DNA of 64,000 nt from contig NZ_MLHN01000014.1 in assembly GCF_001999285.1 (NCBI RefSeq), positions 1-64,000 on the forward strand, given 5' to 3'. Origin of the DNA: Rodentibacter genomosp. 1. GTDB lineage: Bacteria; Pseudomonadota; Gammaproteobacteria; Enterobacterales; Pasteurellaceae. Positions 32,872 to 42,353 of the stretch are shown here, in pieces. Every line of letters starts with the position of its first letter. Position 1 is the stretch's first letter. The position numbers and the translations under genes were made by a program. Under the pieces are notes generated by a model. The model saw only the letters and a list, made by a program, of their open reading frames with translations. It was not told the origin of the DNA and did not search any database.

Positions 32872-33918
32872 ATGAAAAAATTGACCGCACTTTTCACTTC
32901 AAGTGTATTTTTATTTAGCACCCACAATATCGCAATGGCGAATGACAATACGGTTTATCTCTATACTTGGAGCGAATATGTGCCGGAAGGTTTACTGGAC
33001 AACTTTACCAAGGAAACCGGGATTAAAGTGATTGTTTCCAGTTTGGAATCAAATGAGACCATGTACGCTAAACTGAAAACTCAGGGTGAAAACGGTGGCT
33101 ATGATGTGATTGCCCCCACTAGCTATTTTGTCTCCAAAATGATTCGGGAAGATATGCTAAAGGCATTAGATCACGAAAAACTGCCCGTTATCAAAGAATT
33201 AGATCCGAATATGCTGGATAAACCTTTTGATAAAGGCAACAAATATTCCTTACCTCAATTATTTGGGGCGACCGGTATTGCTTATAACACGGATACGCAA
33301 AATCCCGCCCAATTTCAATCTTGGGGCGATCTGTGGAAACCAGAATTTAAGGGGCGTCTGCAAATGTTGGATGATCCAAGAGAATTGTTCAATATTGCCC
33401 TGTTAAAAATGAACAAAGACCCGAATACGCAAGATCCAAAAGTCTTGGAAGAGGCTTATCAAGAATTGCTTAAATTACGTGGCAATATTTTGGCATTTAA
33501 TTCGGATAACCCATCCAGCAGCTTTATTTCAGGTGAAACAGAAGTCGGTTTATTATGGAATGGCTCCGTTCGCATTGCCAAAAACGAAGGGGCAAAAATT
33601 GATATGCAGTATCCGAAAGAAGGCACAATGCTTTGGATTGATAATTTGGCCATTCCGAAAACCGCCAAAAATGTGGAAAGCGCACACAAGCTGATTAATT
33701 ATCTATTGAGTGCGGATGTGGCAGAAAAACTGACTTTACAAATCGGCTATCCCACTTCTAATCTCAAGGCATTAAAACGTTTGCCAAAAGAATTAACGGA
33801 TGATCGTGCAACCTTTATCACTCAAGACATGATCGATAGAAGCCAATGGCAACTTGATGTGGATGATGCCATTGAGCTGTATGATAGCTATTATCAAAAA
33901 TTAAAAGCCGCTCAATAA
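32872..33918 (+). CDS. potD: Periplasmic polyamine-binding protein, second PotD paralogue
   Basis: A 348-residue solute-binding protein of a spermidine/putrescine importer. Signal peptide MKKLTALFTSSVFLFSTHNI, then VYLYTWSEYVPEGLLDNFTK, LESNETMYAKLKT and the C-terminal [19 protein letters not shown]. It is clearly paralogous to the protein at 15821-16873. The strong ribosome site aaggag is before the ATG. The start region (aaaattgaccgcactttt) contains an uptake signal that encodes part of the signal peptide. No permease genes are adjacent. Confidence 0.94.
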   Translation: MKKLTALFTSSVFLFSTHNIAMANDNTVYLYTWSEYVPEGLLDNFTKETGIKVIVSSLESNETMYAKLKTQGENGGYDVIAPTSYFVSKMIREDMLKALDHEKLPVIKELDPNMLDKPFDKGNKYSLPQLFGATGIAYNTDTQNPAQFQSWGDLWKPEFKGRLQMLDDPRELFNIALLKMNKDPNTQDPKVLEEAYQELLKLRGNILAFNSDNPSSSFISGETEVGLLWNGSVRIAKNEGAKIDMQYPKEGTMLWIDNLAIPKTAKNVESAHKLINYLLSADVAEKLTLQIGYPTSNLKALKRLPKELTDDRATFITQDMIDRSQWQLDVDDAIELYDSYYQKLKAAQ

Positions 33919-33965: not shown

Positions 33966-34123
33966 GAAATAGAAGCAAATGGCGTATTTAGGTGAAAACA
34001 TACACCTGTAATTAAATTGTAATTGGCTTTTTCCTCGCTCAACCTCTAAAATACCCTACATTAAAGTCTCTATTTTTCGGTCTATATTGCCGTCCATTTT
34101 CTTATCCCAAAACAGGTAACTCA

Positions 34124-34174
34124 ATGATTTCAGAAGATAATTTTTCTCATGATGCAGCGGGTTATGTTTATTGA
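34124..34174 (+). pseudogene. Displaced original 5' end of mutS
   Basis: ATG at 34124 with acagg upstream encodes MISEDNFS, then HDAAGYVY and a stop. MISE-NF is how MutS starts in Haemophilus (from memory of H. influenzae Mut[17 protein letters not shown]). The native text seems to continue as tctc then atgatgcagc (34149-34158), which also occurs in mutS at 42357-42366; 11 bases between are missing. After 34158 the sequence belongs to the island. This marks the left junction of the element inserted in mutS. Confidence 0.75.
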
Positions 34175-34203
34175 TTGGCAAGGGTTGGCACGTTATTAAA
34201 ATA

Positions 34204-34241
34204 AAAAGCTACATAATAACCTACACTTATGTAGCTTTTTA
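34204..34241 (-). terminator. Strong hairpin at the left end of the island
   Basis: aaaaagctacataa and ttatgtagcttttt are perfect 14-base complements with a 10-base loop and T-runs on both strands. It terminates the Rep-like gene (stop at 34255) and may insulate the island from the stranded mutS promoter. Confidence 0.9.
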
Positions 34242-34254
34242 TTATTGGTATTTG

Positions 34255-35283
34255 TTATTTATAGAATGGCTCAAAACGCTTTACAATATCCTGCCATTTA
34301 TCCCAATTTATATCAAGTTGAAATTTGCTTTCAGCTTTTCTTAGTTGGTCATTTAAAACAACTTGATTATGGCGAGTTGAACCATTTTGGCTTGCTAAGT
34401 AGTTCTTTATTGAAACAGGTAAGCTCCTTGCTGTTTGCAAATATGGAAGAAAACCACTAATGTTATTTTCTATCAATTCTTCATCATAAATCTTTATGAG
34501 TAAAAATGGATTGTCTAGTTTTGATAAATTATGAAGTCGATATTTTTTCCCTTTATTTTTAGGTTTTATCCTAAGCTCTAGCCTTGTTATGCGAGTTTCA
34601 ATATCCTTTTCACTAACAGTTATTAGGTCTTCACTATAATAGCTATTAGAAGTATATAGTTTTACCTTTTCATAAACCAGTAGATAAAAACTTGAACGAT
34701 TTGAACCAACAGCATAGTTGTTTTTAAGATTATCCTTATTATTTATAAACCTAATACCTGTTCTTGCTTTCGAGATAGAGAAGTAATAATTGGTAATAAA
34801 TTTTTTACTATGAATATCAATAGTAAGATCTAGTCTTGTTATTCTAGCTCTTCTAAATAATTTCTCTATTATTCCTTTACCAATTCCTTTCTTCAGCCAT
34901 TCCACGATATTAAAGATTGAATCTATTTCTGCATATTGTGGAGATAACTCAAAGCGAATAGTTGGAACATTTACCTTATACAAAGGGTCATAGGATATCA
35001 ATAAATAGAAACTAGGATTGTTTTTGCAACTAATTTTAAAGTTTTCCTTATATTTATTACTAAGCCCAATCTCCTTTTTGATATTATACCTTCTTGATGT
35101 TTCTTTGGACAAGAACTCTAGTTTTCTACATATTTCCTGATATTCTATTTTTGATTTTATATCACAAACAAAAGATAATTTATCAATTCCCATACATAGA
35201 TTATTGCCTCGGAATTTTCCTACTCTAATGAAGTTATTCATTTTATAAATTGCTGCCTTATTTAATAGTATAGTATTACTCAT
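34255..35283 (-). CDS. Probable replication initiation protein (Rep_trans/rolling-circle type)
   Basis: A 342-residue protein if started at ATG 35283 (gggga upstream); longer in-frame extensions exist but begin inside the AlpA gene region. The segment RARITRLDLTIDIH near the middle and ETRITRLELRIKPK later resemble the RLDLx(D) core of plasmid/phage replication initiation factors. A clear catalytic Tyr motif could not be fixed by eye. It is basic (many Lys/Arg), very AT-rich in codon use, and lies next to an AlpA-type regulator. It would allow autonomous circular replication after excision. Alternative: a relaxase of an integrative mobilisable element. Confidence 0.55.
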   Translation of the reverse strand: MSNTILLNKAAIYKMNNFIRVGKFRGNNLCMGIDKLSFVCDIKSKIEYQEICRKLEFLSKETSRRYNIKKEIGLSNKYKENFKISCKNNPSFYLLISYDPLYKVNVPTIRFELSPQYAEIDSIFNIVEWLKKGIGKGIIEKLFRRARITRLDLTIDIHSKKFITNYYFSISKARTGIRFINNKDNLKNNYAVGSNRSSFYLLVYEKVKLYTSNSYYSEDLITVSEKDIETRITRLELRIKPKNKGKKYRLHNLSKLDNPFLLIKIYDEELIENNISGFLPYLQTARSLPVSIKNYLASQNGSTRHNQVVLNDQLRKAESKFQLDINWDKWQDIVKRFEPFYK

Positions 35284-35293
35284 AATTCCCCCA

Positions 35294-35530
35294 TTAATTA
35301 GTATTACTAAGTAAATATGCTTGTAGTGTGCTAATAGAATGCGAAGAAACGCACTTACAAGTGGAAGAACGCTCTTCAATCCATTCATCAATTTCTTCTT
35401 CTAACCACGCAACCGCCCTTACTGAAAGCTTTTTTGGCTGTGGAAAATCAGATGATTTGATCAAGCGATAGATTGTCGATTTTGATAACGTCGTTTTTGC
35501 CATTACCTGGCGAAGTTTTATAAGTTGCAT
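35294..35530 (-). CDS. AlpA-family regulator / excisionase-like HTH protein
   Basis: A 78-residue protein starting MQLIKLRQVMAKTTLSKSTI; the start at 35530 is favoured by gaggta just upstream. The helix-turn-helix (TLSKSTIYRLIKSSDFPQPK), followed by AVAWLEEEIDEWIEER, is the standard AlpA/MerR-like pattern seen in P4-type satellites, where it activates the integrase or controls excision. It overlaps no neighbour and is read leftward with the Rep-like gene, 10 bases apart, so the two probably form an operon. Confidence 0.88.
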   Translation of the reverse strand: MQLIKLRQVMAKTTLSKSTIYRLIKSSDFPQPKKLSVRAVAWLEEEIDEWIEERSSTCKCVSSHSISTLQAYLLSNTN

Positions 35531-35640
35531 AGCTACCTCGATAGTCATCAAAAGGCGGAATTACCTTTTGTCGAGATGCATTTACAAATATGGGAAAATC
35601 AGTCTGAATTAGCTGAATTTTGGCTTTTTTATGAGTTAAA

Positions 35641-35734: not shown

Positions 35735-36142
35735 ATGCATAAGAATTTAATAGGTCAGACTGCTGAGCAAAAAAGAAACTACAAAGAGCAAAGAAAGCGG
35801 AGAGAGGAGATTAAAAAGAAATTCCCTAAGACAATAACTTACTATACCTATGAACCTATCAATAAAAAGATTGAGAAAAAAGCTGAAAGATTTACTGCAA
35901 TTTTTGAAAAATTAAAGATTAAATATAGAAAAAGTGAACTAAAATCACTAGCTATTACTTACTATATCCATACTTATAAAAAAGAACATTTGAGAAAGTT
36001 ATTTTTATTTATATATAAAAAATTAGTTACAGATGAAGCTAGTGTAGATGACTTAATTCGACATTTAAATCGGAAGTTCTCTGAAATAGAAAGAAAATGG
36101 AATAAAGAGTTGATTATTAAGTATCTACTATTCAAGAATTAA
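35735..36142 (+). CDS. Hypothetical basic island protein
   Basis: A 135-residue protein of unknown family, under the triple operator. It is strongly basic: the N-terminus is almost all Lys/Arg/Glu helices (EQKRNYKEQRKRREEIKKKF), the C-terminal two thirds are helical (HLRKLFLFIYKKLV, FSEIERKWNKELIIKY). It could bind DNA or RNA. The ribosome site gagagg precedes the ATG. Its 3' end overlaps the end of the convergent protease-like gene by 11 bases. No signal peptide or membrane segment is seen. Confidence 0.6.
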   Translation: MHKNLIGQTAEQKRNYKEQRKRREEIKKKFPKTITYYTYEPINKKIEKKAERFTAIFEKLKIKYRKSELKSLAITYYIHTYKKEHLRKLFLFIYKKLVTDEASVDDLIRHLNRKFSEIERKWNKELIIKYLLFKN

Positions 36143-36587
36143 ATGAGATAAAGAAAACTGATGTAGGTAGAATTTCTGATATATTAATGCTTTTTATTGA
36201 GCAGCTATCAAATAGTATTAATTCTTCATCAGTATAATTGTTGATTACACTCCAATGAGAATAAGTAGAGAATAAAACACCTGCGTTTGGAGATTGTAAG
36301 TGGGTAATAATGTTAGATTTTAGAGTTGAACGTCGCTTTATTTCATTAGGCTGAATTTTGATCTTTTTATATAACTTAGATATATGGTTGAGTAAATACT
36401 CCATTTGGTAAATATCTAAACCGTTAGTGAGGAGATCATAAACTCCCCAATTATTCATATAAGCAAGTAGTAACTCATTGAATAATGGTTTACGTTTTAT
36501 TTTTCTATTTGATACGAAATAAACAGCATTCACAATGCTATAAATCCCACATAAACAGTCAAGTTCACCTTGTTGCAATGCTTTCAT
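36132..36587 (-). CDS. C39/papain-like cysteine peptidase-like protein
   Basis: A 151-residue protein from the first ATG. It opens MKALQQGELDCLCGIYSIVN, with a Cys-Gly (C13 or C11) at the start of a helix, as in C39-type peptidases. His 111 lies in STYSHWSVI and Asp 127 in ELILFDSCS. The Q..CG-H-D order and spacing fit a papain-fold triad. No signal peptide or export ABC domain is present, so it should act in the cytosol. It follows the XRE regulator on the same strand (41 bases apart), probably an operon. It could process a partner protein or serve as an effector; the substrate is unknown. Confidence 0.6.
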   Translation of the reverse strand: MKALQQGELDCLCGIYSIVNAVYFVSNRKIKRKPLFNELLLAYMNNWGVYDLLTNGLDIYQMEYLLNHISKLYKKIKIQPNEIKRRSTLKSNIITHLQSPNAGVLFSTYSHWSVINNYTDEELILFDSCSIKSINISEILPTSVFFISFNS

Positions 36588-36628
36588 ATTAAAATTATAT
36601 ATCAATATGTTAGCATATTTATTGCTAT

Positions 36629-36997
36629 CTACAAAACTGTCTCTAAAAAGACTAAAAGCCCTCGTTTTTTATCTGCACTTAGACGAGCTAAGTGTGCCGC
36701 TAATCGATTTTGCACACTATCCTCTGAAACAGGAATAAACTTCCATTTGTCATTACTTTTAATATCGGATACACAATCAATAAAGAACCACCCGATTTCA
36801 GTGTTTAAGGTGGTTGCAATTTCGACTAAGTGAGCCACATTGATTTTATTTTCTCCACGTTCGTAGCGAGAAAGCTGCTGTTGGGCGATACCTATCTGTT
36901 CCGACAACTCTGAGGCGCTAAATCCAAGTTCTTTTCTTTTTTGTTGAATCCTTTTACCTATCAATCTATCCGTCTCTGTTACTGAAAGTTTCGACAT
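36629..36997 (-). CDS. XRE-family transcriptional regulator
   Basis: A 122-residue protein. The Cro/CI-type HTH spans about residues 10-65 (GKRIQQKRKELGFSASELSE, then GIAQQQLSRYERGENKINV), followed by a short C-terminal dimerisation region that ends LARLSADKKRGLLVFLETVL. It is divergent from the 300-residue gene at 37105, with 107 bases between them, so it probably controls that operon and its own. A phage-type repressor role for island maintenance is likely. Confidence 0.9.
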   Translation of the reverse strand: MSKLSVTETDRLIGKRIQQKRKELGFSASELSEQIGIAQQQLSRYERGENKINVAHLVEIATTLNTEIGWFFIDCVSDIKSNDKWKFIPVSEDSVQNRLAAHLARLSADKKRGLLVFLETVL

Positions 36998-37104: not shown

Positions 37105-38007
37105 ATGCCGTCTCAATCACAGGTTATCGATGCTTTCTATCGTTTGTATCAGGCTTATCATAATAAGCGGTTTACAAAGACGCTCAATTTTACTGAAAAG
37201 ACAGAGCGTGAATTACTCCCGTTAGTAAGAAATTACCTATTTGGTTATTTTGATCATCTTGAACCGGAAGCTGGGGTACAGATTACTACAAATGTTCAAG
37301 GTCGCTTTGATTTCCTCATTAATAATATCGCGGTTGAATTTGCAATCAGATCGGCAAGAAAAGGAGGAAATAACCTTAAAGCTGAAAAGAATGTGGGTGA
37401 AATTAAAAAATTAATTAGACATCCGGATCATTCTTTAATGATTTTATTTGACTTTAAAAAATCTATTACGGATGAAGAGGTCAACAAAACCCTTGAAGAA
37501 TATAGAAAAATTCCTTCTCTAGGGCGAGGAAATCCTCACAGATATCCATTTACAGTCGCTTACTTTTATCAAGATGAATCGGGGGATCTATCGTATGACA
37601 CAAGGAGAATCCGAGTAAAAAGACGACCGATTAGTCTATGTGAAGATAAAGATATTATTGAGCAAATCAACGTTATTAACCAACGAGATTTGACTGCTAT
37701 AGAATTTGATTTTAATACTGGAGATTATATTTGTACATACTTGGTTGAAGTGAGGCTGAAAAAAGAGGGAGAATTAACGATTGAATATCAGGATAGTGAA
37801 GGAAATTATCATCAATATAAGGGCTGTGAAACAAAGAATAATACTTATGAGTTAATCTCGGCTGAAAACTCGTTGAATAAAGCCACAGTATCTTTGTCTC
37901 TTGATGAAGAAGATAAAACGTTGACGATTGAAGGGACACTAATAGAAGATGGTTATAAAAAAGAGTGGTTTATCGAAAATAATACTGAAGTAAATAATAA
38001 AAAATAG
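37105..38007 (+). CDS. Island protein with possible PD-(D/E)XK nuclease fold
   Basis: A 300-residue protein of no family I recognise with certainty. The N-terminal 120 residues have the strand pattern of restriction-endonuclease-like folds: GRFDFLINNIAVEFAIR gives D69 and E78 in a D-x8-E arrangement, followed by a helix with Lys and a hydrophobic strand SLMILFDF. The usual Lys two after the Glu is Ala here, so catalysis is doubtful. The C-terminal part (about 200-290) is beta-rich (EVRLKKEGELTIEYQD). The gene ends 36 bases before the FtsK-type gene on the same strand, so the two probably work together. Confidence 0.45.
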   Translation: MPSQSQVIDAFYRLYQAYHNKRFTKTLNFTEKTERELLPLVRNYLFGYFDHLEPEAGVQITTNVQGRFDFLINNIAVEFAIRSARKGGNNLKAEKNVGEIKKLIRHPDHSLMILFDFKKSITDEEVNKTLEEYRKIPSLGRGNPHRYPFTVAYFYQDESGDLSYDTRRIRVKRRPISLCEDKDIIEQINVINQRDLTAIEFDFNTGDYICTYLVEVRLKKEGELTIEYQDSEGNYHQYKGCETKNNTYELISAENSLNKATVSLSLDEEDKTLTIEGTLIEDGYKKEWFIENNTEVNNKK

Positions 38008-38043: not shown

Positions 38044-40182
38044 ATGATGAGTAAAACAAACGATGATAGTTCATTAAAAAATGAACAAATTATCCAAAAA
38101 TTAGAAGAATTTTATAAAGAGTATAATATCAATATAAAATTTAAATCAGTAACTACTTATTTTCACTTTAATTCTTACAATTTTGAAATTAAAAAAAGTC
38201 AGGATTTTTCAACAATAAAATCCTTAGAGAAAAAATTATATAAAGCATTTCAATTACCTTCAATCTTGATTACACAACAAGAAAGTACTGATGTTTCCTT
38301 TCAAATCATTCATCAAGATAGAAAACCTTATGTATTTTTAGAGGCGGTTCAAAGTGAAGCTTTCCAAAATCCAAAAGATATGCAACTTCCTTTCTTGTTA
38401 GGAGAAAGAAATGGAGCATTCGTAGCAAATTTGGCTAAATTTCCTCATTTGTTAATTAGTGGATGTGTAGGTGCGGGAAAATCAATGTTTATTCATAATT
38501 TAATATTAAGCCTGCTACATCATCAATCGCCAGAAAAATTAAAATTGATCTTAGTTGATCCTAAAGTAGTAGAATTAAGTATATATAATGACATTCCCCA
38601 TTTGCTGACACCCGTGGTTACCGATATGAAAAAAGCGGCAAATGCCTTACGTTGGTGTGTGGATGAAATGGAACGCCGTTATCAATTACTTTCTGCTTTG
38701 CAGGTGCGTAATATTGAAGGCTTTAATGAGAAAATTGATGAATATGAAGGAATGGGAATGCCGATTCCAAATCCGATTTGGAAACAGGATGATACTTCGG
38801 ATCAAATGCCGCCGGCATTGAAAAAATTTAGCTATATCGTGGTGATTTTGGATGAATTTGCTGATCTTGTGATGGTTGCCAGCAAGCAAATTGAAGAGTT
38901 AATCGCCCGACTTGCACAAAAAGCACGTGCGGTTGGTATTCACCTTATTTTGGCAACGCAACGCCCTTCCGGTGATGTGATTACGAAGCTGATTAAAGCC
39001 AATATTCCAAGTCGTATTGCATTTACGGTTACTTCGGCAACTGATTCTAGAATCATTATAGATTGTAATGACGCTGAATGTTTGTGTGGTAGAGGTGATA
39101 TGTTGGTTTCTCTACCTGGAAATTACGCTCCCCTTAGAGTTCAAGCACCTTTCATTAATGATGATGATATTTCACTTTTTACAGAAAGGTTACGTTTGCA
39201 AGGAAAACCGAAATATATTGATTTTCCTAAAGATTTTTCTAAAAGAATGGAAGAAAAACCGAAATATGATCCAATAATTCCCGATGTATTAAAATATATT
39301 CTTGATAGCCAAAATACCTCGATATCTGCGATTCTACGTCAATTTCATATCGGTTTTAATCGAGCTGCAAGAATTTTAGATTCTTTGGAAGATAAAGGTT
39401 TTATTTCTCCTTCTTATAACAACAAACGGAAAATCTTAATCAATGAATTTAGTGAGGCAGACTTACCACAAGAAATACTAGAGAGTAAACTACCGGAAGT
39501 TGTAGAAAATAAGCCTAGTTTACAAATAGGATTAATTACATTTGGAAAGTTTTCAGATAGCTTAATAAATAATATTGATGAATATAACATCACTTATTAT
39601 TCTTATGGCGACATTGATTATAATGCTATAGTTAATATGGATGTTTTTATATTAGTTGGTGATATAAATGAGAAAATATTAACAAATAAAAAGTTAGAAA
39701 AAATAATAGAAAATAATACCGAATTAATTACTTTTATTATATCTTTCAATAAAGATAAGGATTTTTTAGATAAATTTAATATTCCATATTTTATAGGAGA
39801 TGAAAATAATTCTGATAAGATTAATGAGTTAATAAGATCTTTATGCAATATGTCAGTTAATCCAGGGATGATTAATGTGGATATTGTTGATATTAGTTTA
39901 GCTTTTTCAGATTGTAGAAATGTGAAGTATTTATGTGTAAAAGATAGCACCAAAGAATATCGTCATAATATAAAAAATTATTTCAATAAATCAAATAAAA
40001 AGATATTATCTTCATTAGTGAATATTGAATCTGACTTTAGTTTATCTTTTGATATTATGTGTTCGATTACGGATTGGATTGCGGAGCAAGTTAATGAAAA
40101 TGCAAGGATTGTCTGTGGAACATCATTGAATTTTGCTCTTAAGGATGAATTAAAAATTCATATTTTTTATGCAGAAGAATAA
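38044..40182 (+). CDS. FtsK/SpoIIIE-type DNA translocase fused to a degenerate FtsZ-like domain
   Basis: A 712-residue fusion. Residues of about 100-390 are the FtsK motor: Walker A G140-S147 (GCVGAGKS), Walker B IVVILDEFAD (265-273) and the segment LATQRPSGDVITKLIKANIP. Residues of about 410-465 are a gamma winged-helix (SISAILRQFHIGFNRAARIL) that in FtsK reads polar DNA motifs. Residues of about 490-712 look like FtsZ without its GTP loop: PGMINVDIVDISLAF aligns with FtsZ PGLMNVDFADVRTV, and NARIVCGTSLNFALKDELKI with NATVVIGTSLDPDMNDELRV. The tubulin GGGTGTG motif is absent. No membrane segment is present. Codons in 38580-39030 look host-like, those around it AT-rich. Confidence 0.85.
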   Translation: MMSKTNDDSSLKNEQIIQKLEEFYKEYNINIKFKSVTTYFHFNSYNFEIKKSQDFSTIKSLEKKLYKAFQLPSILITQQESTDVSFQIIHQDRKPYVFLEAVQSEAFQNPKDMQLPFLLGERNGAFVANLAKFPHLLISGCVGAGKSMFIHNLILSLLHHQSPEKLKLILVDPKVVELSIYNDIPHLLTPVVTDMKKAANALRWCVDEMERRYQLLSALQVRNIEGFNEKIDEYEGMGMPIPNPIWKQDDTSDQMPPALKKFSYIVVILDEFADLVMVASKQIEELIARLAQKARAVGIHLILATQRPSGDVITKLIKANIPSRIAFTVTSATDSRIIIDCNDAECLCGRGDMLVSLPGNYAPLRVQAPFINDDDISLFTERLRLQGKPKYIDFPKDFSKRMEEKPKYDPIIPDVLKYILDSQNTSISAILRQFHIGFNRAARILDSLEDKGFISPSYNNKRKILINEFSEADLPQEILESKLPEVVENKPSLQIGLITFGKFSDSLINNIDEYNITYYSYGDIDYNAIVNMDVFILVGDINEKILTNKKLEKIIENNTELITFIISFNKDKDFLDKFNIPYFIGDENNSDKINELIRSLCNMSVNPGMINVDIVDISLAFSDCRNVKYLCVKDSTKEYRHNIKNYFNKSNKKILSSLVNIESDFSLSFDIMCSITDWIAEQVNENARIVCGTSLNFALKDELKIHIFYAEE

Positions 40183-40492
40183 ATAATTTTTATCTGAAAA
40201 TCTAAATTCTCAGTCGATCTTATTAAAAACAAGTGCATCTTCCTCTATTGGGAAGTTTGGAAGAGGGGATTCTAAAAGCGGAGCTTTCATAGACAGGTGG
40301 GGAAAGCTCACCTATTTTATTTAGACCATATAAATGATGAGACCGGCTCTTTGAGCTTAATTATCCATCGTTTCTTATTGTTAATGGCTTTTTTCTCTTA
40401 TTACTCATAGAATAGACCCCTAAAAGGCAAGACATAGTTCGGCTTTATCAATATTTAAGCATTAAAATGACTTTGAGATTAAGAGAAAGAAA
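40183..40492. other. Gap with a remnant of a second integrase 5' end
   Basis: No complete gene. On the minus strand ATG 40408 begins a 15-codon frame MSNKRKKPLTIRNDG, resembling the start of the downstream integrase (MSNSIKKPLTTKTIE). The DNA match runs over about 48 bases (40380-40425 against 42119-42167, roughly 80 percent by eye). This is the start of a lost integrase gene of a second element copy. The remaining bases show no gene or hairpin with a T-run. Confidence 0.6.
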
Positions 40493-40525
40493 GTGAATTT
40501 AAATGAAACATTATCCCAACACACC
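40493..40525 (+). other. att-like sequence inside the island (candidate internal junction)
   Basis: The 33 bases from GTG 40493 match the right island end/mutS junction at 42321-42353 in 26 of 33 positions by eye; both encode (V/M)NLNE..SQHT. This supports two related elements once integrated in tandem at the same site. It is followed at once by an FtsK gamma-domain fragment. Confidence 0.55.
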
Positions 40526-40856
40526 TGATTTAACAAGAATCCACAGTGCTTTTGTCAGTGATGAAGAAATTATGGCTATCACAGATTTCCTGCGTATGTT
40601 TGGACTACCTCGATATCAAGAAGATATTTTTACTGGTGAAACATTGTCATTATTAAATGACGAACTGGATCCTTTATTTGATAAAGTACGCAAATTCGTG
40701 ATTAAAACAGAAACTACTTCAATCTCGGCAATTATACGCAAGTTTAGCATTGGTTTTAATCGTGCTGCTAATATTATGGCGCAGCTTGAAGCAGAAGGGG
40801 TTATATCAGAACCATTAAAATCGGGAAAACGAGAGTTACTCATATCAAAAAATTAA
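40503..40856 (+). CDS. Stand-alone FtsK gamma (winged-helix) fragment
   Basis: A 117-residue protein that matches the C-terminal end of FtsK: NTPDLTRIHSAFVSDEEI at the N-terminus is the tail of the motor domain, and the gamma domain follows (DPLFDKVRKFVI, TSISAIIRKFSIGFNRAANI). It lacks the ATPase core. The ATG lies inside the att-like sequence. It is probably the 3' remnant of a second translocase gene from a deleted tandem element, but it could be expressed and act as a DNA-binding competitor of FtsK. Confidence 0.7.
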   Translation: MKHYPNTPDLTRIHSAFVSDEEIMAITDFLRMFGLPRYQEDIFTGETLSLLNDELDPLFDKVRKFVIKTETTSISAIIRKFSIGFNRAANIMAQLEAEGVISEPLKSGKRELLISKN

Positions 40857-40876
40857 AGTAATAGGCAGGAAACTGC

Positions 40877-42146
40877 CTATTTCTCAATTACTAAATCATC
40901 TAAATAATCAGCCCATTTCTGTAACCAAATACGGCATTCTTTGTCATAACTATGTAAATTATAAGTTCCTTCAATTCCTTTTTTTGAATGTCCTAAAATA
41001 GCCTCTCCAACTTCATTTGGACAGCCTAAACGGGCTAAGCCGGTACGAACCGTTCTGCGTAGATCGTGTGGAGACCAATGTTCAATATCTAACATTAAGC
41101 CATTTTTTCTTAAAGCCCACATTCTTTCTGTTAGATACTTTTGTTGTATTGGCTTTTCTTGTAATCTCATTTGAAATAGGTATCTCGTTGAATGATCAAA
41201 TGTTTTTATGAGTTCTATTGCTTGTGTAGAAAGTTGGACATAGCGGGAAGTACCTGTTTTTGTTTCTCTCAAGAAAATTGTTTTCATTTCTAAATCAATA
41301 TCATCCCACTCTATTGTACAAATTTCTCCTGTTCGGCATCCGGTGAGTAATGTAAGCAAAAATACATTTTGGATTTTTTCAGTTAAGCGAGATTTTTTTA
41401 TCCATTCTAAGAATATGCTAAGCTCTCTATGATCAAATGCTCGCGTTCCCCGATTATTAGTTAGCTTAACAGTACTCATTTTTAACGTTTCTTTTGCTAA
41501 AAGTGCAGGATTAACAAAATTTTCATCAAACTTGTCTAATCCTATTGCAAAACGGTAAGCTAAAGCCCACTCACGAAGAACGTTACCCGCTTGAACATTA
41601 GCTCCTCTTTCATTTACAATCTTCAAGATATGCTCGGCAATTTCTTTTCTAGTTATAGAAGACGCTAACCTATTACCAAAAGGAATGACAACATCATTAT
41701 GTAATGTTCGACGAACTTCATCTGTCCTTTAGGTTTTCTTGCACCGACTATCAAACGACCATTTTCACTATAGTGATCTTCAATATACTGTGATAGATAG
41801 AGTTCAATAAGATCTTTAACATAGAACGGTTTTTTTGATTAGCTTGTTCTTTCTTGTATTTTTTTAGTTCTGATGCGGGACAGCGACCTGCAAGTCGAAT
41901 ATGTTTCAATTCTTTAAGCTGCTTTCTCGCTTCTGCTAAACTGACAGCAGGAAATGAGCCAATTTTTACTTGAGTAAGTTTTTGAGTTATCGGGCTTGAA
42001 TAACGATAGAAAAAGGTTTTCAGCCCTGTCTTGCCACAGGTAACTCTTAGACCTGAGTATTCTCCAATATCAGCTTTATCGGGATCTTTGGGCTTCATCG
42101 CCTCAATAGTTTTTGTCGTTAATGGCTTTTTTATACTATTACTCAT
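40877..42146 (-). pseudogene. P4-type tyrosine integrase with two frameshifts
   Basis: Reading leftward, the arm-binding domain (MSNSIKKPLTTKTIEAMKPK, then GLRVTCGKTGLKTFFYRYSS) runs in one frame until a run of seven T (41830-41836). The next piece (PFYVKDLIELYLSQYIEDHY) is in a second frame. Another shift near the sequence for RKPKGQ leads to the catalytic half (40877 to about 41690). That half has the Arg in TGCRTGE, the HDLRR box, the GHS His and the YNLHSY Tyr. The intact length would be about 420 residues. It targets mutS, judged from position. It is inactive as written unless the shifts are read errors. Confidence 0.85.
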
Positions 42147-42180
42147 AAAATATCTCCTTAAAAGTGCTTATATATTATAC

Positions 42181-42268
42181 TATAGGTTTATAGGAGCCTA
42201 CAAATAAACCTATATTTAAGTATGGGTTTTTATAAGACTTTATGAAACTTTGATAAACTTTATGAAAC
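42181..42268. repeat. Inverted and direct repeats at the island's right end
   Basis: tataggtttat (42181-42191) and ataaacctata (42204-42214) form an 11-base inverted repeat. actttatgaaac occurs twice (42237-42248 and 42257-42268), 20 bases apart. They lie between the integrase start and the mutS junction, where arm-type integrase or excisionase sites are expected. Function is inferred. Confidence 0.5.
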
Positions 42269-42320
42269 GATGAACTTATTTAAAATCATTTAATATCAAT
42301 AACTTAATTAATTTAATAAT

Positions 42321-42353
42321 ATGAATTTAAACGAAAAAATGTCACAACATACC
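42321..42353. other. Right island/mutS junction (attR-like)
   Basis: The sequence encoding MNLNEKM comes from the island side; SQHTPMMQQ is native MutS. The junction lies near caacatacc. A similar sequence is found at 40493-40525. No good ribosome site precedes the ATG at 42321. Confidence 0.65.

Follow-up and report, generated by a model that had tools for sequence, protein, structure and literature searches.

Probable fusion of two tandem integrative elements at the 5′ end of mutS in Rodentibacter genomosp. 1

The window, a 64,000-nucleotide stretch of a Rodentibacter genomosp. 1 contig, carries an integrative element between a gene for a solute-binding protein (32872-33918; Pfam, named potD by eye) and mutS. 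The region starts with an ordered set of element genes ending in ftsK. This set is followed by short relics of an integrase start and of a mutS start, the 3′ end of another ftsK, an integrase gene and finally mutS itself. The features are as follows, with elements 1 and 2 numbered according to the preferred interpretation.

34124-34148, forward strand: stump of the native mutS start of the host, at the outer left junction
34149-34254, no strand: element 1 left end, containing a 17-bp inverted repeat (34200-34216 and 34227-34243) and one ACCTACA arm-like site (34219-34225)
34255-35283, reverse strand: putative replication initiator (Rep-like; tentative, by eye)
35294-35551, reverse strand: AlpA-type regulator, excisionase-like (Pfam PF05930, E 1.3e-21)
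35735-36142, forward strand: open reading frame conserved in sister elements (39% identity)
36132-36605, reverse strand: open reading frame shared with the sister elements (68-69%), resembling a cysteine peptidase by eye only
36629-36997, reverse strand: XRE/HTH_3 repressor-like protein (Pfam PF01381, E 1.1e-14), 86-88% identical in sister elements
37105-38007, forward strand: variable cargo open reading frame
38044-40182, forward strand: FtsK/SpoIIIE motor of element 1, with FtsK_gamma followed by an FtsZ-like domain at the C-terminus (Pfam FtsK_SpoIIIE, PF01580, 2.5e-67; FtsK_gamma 8.8e-17)
40295-40313, forward strand: terminator-like hairpin after the FtsK gene (consensus scan; three in the region against 1.2 expected)
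40321-40426, reverse strand: putative relic of the 5′ end of the element 1 integrase gene and its leader
40427-40492, no strand: putative shortened right-end leader of element 1, in which no RCCTAYA arm-like site was found
40493-40525, forward strand: internal att relic of mutS 5′ coding sequence, the presumed former junction of elements 1 and 2
40524-40856, forward strand: 3′ end of the putative element 2 ftsK (gamma domain; Pfam FtsK_gamma 5.5e-21)
40877-42146, reverse strand: putative element 2 integrase, a tyrosine recombinase (Pfam PF00589 and PF13356) with two frameshifts, near 41722 and 41811-41838
42147-42320, no strand: putative right end of element 2 with arm-like sites at 42181-42187, 42196-42202 and 42208-42214
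42321-42353, forward strand: right junction, where an element-supplied mutS start (MNLNEKMS) is joined to the host core CAACATACC

Two further loci, in Haemophilus seminalis SZY H1 (G067) and Haemophilus parainfluenzae C2006002596 (G078), came up when genome contigs were scanned with the Rep alignment. The left ends of both are conserved with that of element 1. The Rep-like protein is 46-52% identical among the carriers and occurs in 3 of 140 Pasteurellaceae genomes, which are the three carriers at mutS. It has no match in Pfam, PHROGs or NCBIfam and no tblastn match in plasmid or phage records, and its alignment returned nothing beyond the window's own genome among 369 genomes drawn from the class. 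The structure model is of low confidence (mean pLDDT 52.5), and a fold search gave a weak match to an inovirus protein; no function is drawn from this model. The AlpA-type regulator is 76% identical in the H. parainfluenzae element. Both conserved open reading frames lack a family match in Pfam, PHROGs and NCBIfam, as does the cargo open reading frame in these three and in PADLOC. Different genes occupy the cargo position in H. parainfluenzae, where the slot between repressor and ftsK (L018, 8556-9494) holds an open reading frame with weak PDC-S14 similarity and another open reading frame. A tailed prophage was considered and rejected; Pfam named no structural or packaging genes on ten open reading frames of the element region, and with PHROGs, run on five of these, the sole matches were to FtsK, one of them a weak terminase-like match in the ATPase region. 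Megablast of the region against 50,697 phage records gave no match, and alignments of FtsK or Rep confirmed no relative among viral contigs. The PADLOC matches to FtsK are to other FtsK/HerA-type motors (SspH, mad8 and HerA) and are not counted as evidence for a defence system.

The gene starting at 42321 contains all five MutS domains (Pfam), and its junction is defined by comparison with 14 congeners. None of these 14 other genomes of the genus has an interruption in the mutS leader or start, the start reading ATGATTTC and being preceded by CAGGTAACT. The stump at 34124-34148 matches the uninterrupted mutS start of one congener (G124, L066). Together, the stump and the uninterrupted starts place the element in the 5′ end of mutS, to which it supplies a new start. 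The outer left junction (34140-34160) is short of about 9-10 att core bases (ACATACCCC) in comparison with the uninterrupted site of the same congener. In 5 of the 14 congeners a potD-like gene immediately precedes mutS; it was not found in the flank of the other nine, among which the L066 flank upstream of mutS is shorter than 400 bases. The native leader is replaced at the element-supplied start (42300-42321 compared with 34110-34124), where no ribosome-binding site is evident by eye. Judging from these sequences, the new start may alter mutS expression.

The element family is rare among the genomes searched. At E <= 1e-60, the integrase was matched in 4 of 140 Pasteurellaceae genomes, namely the window's own, the two Haemophilus carriers and G113; three of the four integrases are at mutS. 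The matches in H. seminalis and G113 contain one stop codon each. The G113 integrase (L054, 10602-11879; 68% identical) is away from mutS in an unrelated neighbourhood. In both Haemophilus genomes the integrase adjoins mutS (Pfam) and a single element sits at the 5′ end of this gene, with the uninterrupted order left end, rep-like, alpA, xre, cargo, ftsK, int and mutS. The core CARCATACGCC is present at both of their junctions; at the left junction it is followed by TGATGCATAAGG, and at the right CAACATACGCC precedes host mutS. The window departs from this order after ftsK, with an integrase-start relic, a mutS-start relic, a foreign ftsK 3′ end from 40524, and then int, att core and mutS. This arrangement does not recur in many unrelated hosts among the 140 genomes, and of the three carriers at mutS only the window has the scar. 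A DNA search of the 140 genomes with 40183-40523 gave no match outside the window's genome, with four candidates scored per genome. This search missed the integrase starts of both Haemophilus carriers and is of limited sensitivity, so the stronger evidence is that both other carriers at mutS lack the scar.

The internal scar reproduces the right end of the element in order and orientation. The initial annotation had counted 26 of 33 matches between 40493-40525 and the right junction at 42321-42353, and re-alignment returned the same count. It is the best gapless match to this 33-mer on either strand of the window, followed by one of 22/33, and it exceeds the maximum of 24 in 200 dinucleotide-preserving window shuffles scored on two strands (also 24 in a one-strand run). 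Read from 40493 in the mutS frame, the relic gives VNLNETLSQHT; on the alignment and frame, the att-like 33-mer is read as 5′ mutS coding sequence, the last two bases of which may already belong to the ftsK tail. An att core is common to the internal and both outer junctions, the left one having lost about 9-10 of its bases. Before the internal core lies the right end of element 1, recognized by a gapless identity of 44/55 between 40372-40426 and the integrase start at 42110-42164, where the next best match in the window has 32 and the shuffle maximum is 35 (200 two-strand shuffles, one-strand the same). The similarity of 40380-40425 to the integrase start had been seen before, and it stands at 38/46; the length of 48 bases then given for it is in fact 46. 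Gapped alignment with the window's own right end extends the relic inward to about 40321 with a score of 115, while the maximum of 300 shuffles is 92. The same gapped test gave no significant score with the right ends of the H. parainfluenzae and H. seminalis elements (80 and 72; shuffle maxima 91 and 85). In blastn, 40348-40414 matches the integrase start of either element (74% identity, 69 columns, E 2e-5); elsewhere in the two loci nothing falls below E 0.03 (next E 0.037 or worse). Each Haemophilus element has a single copy of the integrase start and lacks an internal relic.

The sequence after the internal att core belongs to a different ftsK. DNA identity to the H. parainfluenzae element is 76% over 40524-40880, and directly upstream of 40524 it drops to 1-2 of 5 matches per block. 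The tail protein is 65% identical to FtsK of H. parainfluenzae, 50% to that of H. seminalis, 53% to an FtsK on contig C49, which is taken as the host's, and only 40% to the complete FtsK of the window. The tail is therefore no copy of the neighboring ftsK, and the two genes come from two distinct elements. An FtsK gamma tail at 40503-40856 had been proposed initially; the gamma domain is confirmed, but the ftsK sequence begins at 40524, and the start codon of the open frame called from 40503 lies inside mutS-like sequence. At the breakpoint, the window reads CCTGAT, as do the left junctions of the relatives, and ftsK of H. parainfluenzae reads CCAGAT. With CC(T/A)GAT shared at the join, a deletion via this short sequence is plausible; alternatively, the integrase may have made the deletion at a site in ftsK that it met by chance. 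No left end of element 2 was found after the internal att; at most TGAT could be left of it, and ftsK follows from 40524. We read this missing end as deleted and classify the locus as a collapsed rather than a standing tandem.

The integrase next to mutS is 87.5% identical to that of the H. parainfluenzae element in its main piece. The gene initially described as the surviving integrase is frameshifted; against the intact H. parainfluenzae integrase, tblastn recovers it in three segments, each in a different frame. As the assembly behind the window consists of 50 contigs, sequencing errors could account for small indels, these frameshifts included. All three elements have RCCTAYA arm-like sites, one at the left end and two or three at the right, and there is none in the 85-base relic leader; this motif, selected by eye, has 21 occurrences on the two strands of the window.

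The homologies, gene order, reading frames, breakpoints and uninterrupted congener sites point to tandem accretion of two elements of the same family at mutS, followed by deletions that fused them, and we consider this very probable. A small integrative element, with an integrase, AlpA-like factor, Rep-like protein and FtsK motor, would have its attachment site in the 5′ coding end of mutS and provide the gene with a new start. Two divergent members of the family would have come into tandem at mutS, here or in an ancestral host. Deletions would then have removed the greater part of the integrase gene and some of the right-end leader from element 1, and from element 2 the whole stretch between the left junction and a position within ftsK, with the join at CC(T/A)GAT. 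The resulting composite would consist of the element 1 genes, the internal att scar, and the FtsK tail and integrase of element 2. The second element beside the first, mostly deleted afterwards, was already proposed in the initial annotation, and it is supported by the gene order, the foreign FtsK tail and the uninterrupted single-copy relatives. The relic before the internal att suggests in addition that element 1 is truncated too, with most of its integrase lost. With outer ends of one and the same att system, the composite may in the past have been mobile as a whole by means of integrase 2. At present it is probably immobilised, given the frameshifts in this integrase and the core bases lost at the outer left junction. 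Two observations weigh against the tandem. The left end of element 2 is wholly gone, so that this element is attested solely by its FtsK tail and integrase; and the integrase relic of element 1 is short, with a gapped extension significant only against the window's own right end.

The order of events could differ in one respect that is compatible with the main claim. The tandem may have arisen and collapsed in another host, and the fused element entered this mutS via integrase 2. Outer ends of the same att family fit such an entry, as does the light damage of integrase 2 next to a far more decayed element 1 integrase relic. However, the scar is present only in the window's genome of 140 Pasteurellaceae, by a DNA search of limited sensitivity and direct inspection of the two other mutS carriers, and we regard this version as possible but rather unlikely. 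Much less probable is a local origin with no second element, in which the element duplicated its own right end (int start, leader and mutS start) and the 3′ end of its ftsK. Both right-end copies do lie within 2 kb in direct orientation, but about 20% of their sites differ, the FtsK tail resembles FtsK of H. parainfluenzae and of the presumed host more closely than the element's own, and a duplication would not predict so abrupt a change to ftsK where the att core ends.

Chance resemblance of AT-rich DNA can be practically dismissed. The 14-base core pattern with at most two mismatches is no rarer than chance (10 in the window against 6.4 expected), but the shuffle controls, the correct order and orientation of both copies and their common mutS reading frame argue strongly against coincidence. 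It is also improbable, if less so than a local duplication, that the FtsK tail at 40503-40856 works as a small gene in its own right, encoding a stand-alone DNA-binding protein of the gamma-domain type under selection. The frame is open with a good FtsK_gamma match, and comparison with H. parainfluenzae gives dN 0.21 and dS 0.83, a ratio that we judge uninformative because much of the divergence may predate the truncation. Against this function are the start codon in mutS-like sequence and the two sister elements, where no stand-alone gamma open reading frame of at least 80 or at least 90 aa lies between FtsK and int. The collapsed tandem thus remains the preferred reading, and the locus would then be a readable fossil, junctions included, of two tandem integrative elements collapsing into one composite.

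Tandem accretion of ICEs and IMEs is a known phenomenon; here it has probably occurred in a rare element family. Integration at a mismatch-repair gene also has a precedent in SpyCI of Streptococcus pyogenes, which integrates at mutL. As in that case, the mutS element sits at the 5′ end of the gene and parts it from its native leader, although gene, host and element are different and no evidence of regulated excision is seen for the mutS element. The locus also puts on record elements that exchange the start of a mismatch-repair gene for one of their own, a family seldom met in the genomes searched. Literature searches found no paper on elements with mutS and FtsK in Haemophilus, on elements at mutS or on tandem accretion with mutS. 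A comparable arrangement is formed by the tandem AICE pairs Fean5518/Fean5534 and Sav3708/Sav3728 in tRNA genes, as described in PMC3218068. There too, two elements adjoin at a shared site and an att-like junction separates them, but in the mutS composite each member is cut short at the internal junction, and integration is in the mutS 5′ end instead of a tRNA gene. According to PMC3218068, AICEs encode an integrase, Rep and a single FtsK/SpoIIIE-type translocase. The mutS element resembles them in being small and in having a tyrosine integrase (broken in the window), a Rep-like gene and an FtsK motor with gamma domain. It differs in its Pasteurellaceae host, the named sister carriers being Haemophilus and not Actinobacteria, in a Rep-like protein without match in the family models tried (AICE initiators being of RepSA, RepAM or Prim-Pol type), and in the FtsZ-like tail on one FtsK of the mutS elements. 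Membership of the AICEs is not claimed.

This FtsZ-like tail, close to the tandem scar, is the more unusual feature of the two. The complete FtsK has 712 residues, in which motor and gamma domain are followed by about 225 residues resembling FtsZ (39505-40182). The tail matches Pfam FtsZ_C (6.8e-5) and NCBIfam TIGR00065 ftsZ (1.2e-5), both below the curated cut-offs, as well as FtsZ chains of the PDB (6e-4), and is 26-31% identical to host-type FtsZ proteins over about its last 120 residues. A glycine-rich GTP-binding signature is not apparent by eye. The domain model is weak (mean pLDDT 51.7), and FtsZ is not among the 50 matches listed in a fold search with this model, an absence that counts neither for nor against a resemblance to FtsZ. 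FtsK of H. parainfluenzae ends with no such domain, and that of H. seminalis (477 residues) is too short for one. Among 689 plasmid records with a match, not one covered 80% of the complete FtsK in a single place, and a literature search found no paper on an FtsK-FtsZ fusion. We might speculate that the family is a Gram-negative counterpart of actinomycete FtsK-type elements that takes over the mutS leader, and that FtsK of element 1 gained a degenerate FtsZ-like domain tethering the motor to the division ring of the host, so that the DNA pump of the element would sit at the septum and dispense with the membrane anchor of host FtsK; we consider this unlikely. An FtsK with an FtsZ-like tail is worth a study of its own. 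Small FtsZ-like proteins outside ftsZ are found in four other Pasteurellaceae, G034, G050, G006 and G005 (L058, 576-1247; L060, 8321-9079; L032, 1441-2301; L046, 1468-2322 and 2340-3128).
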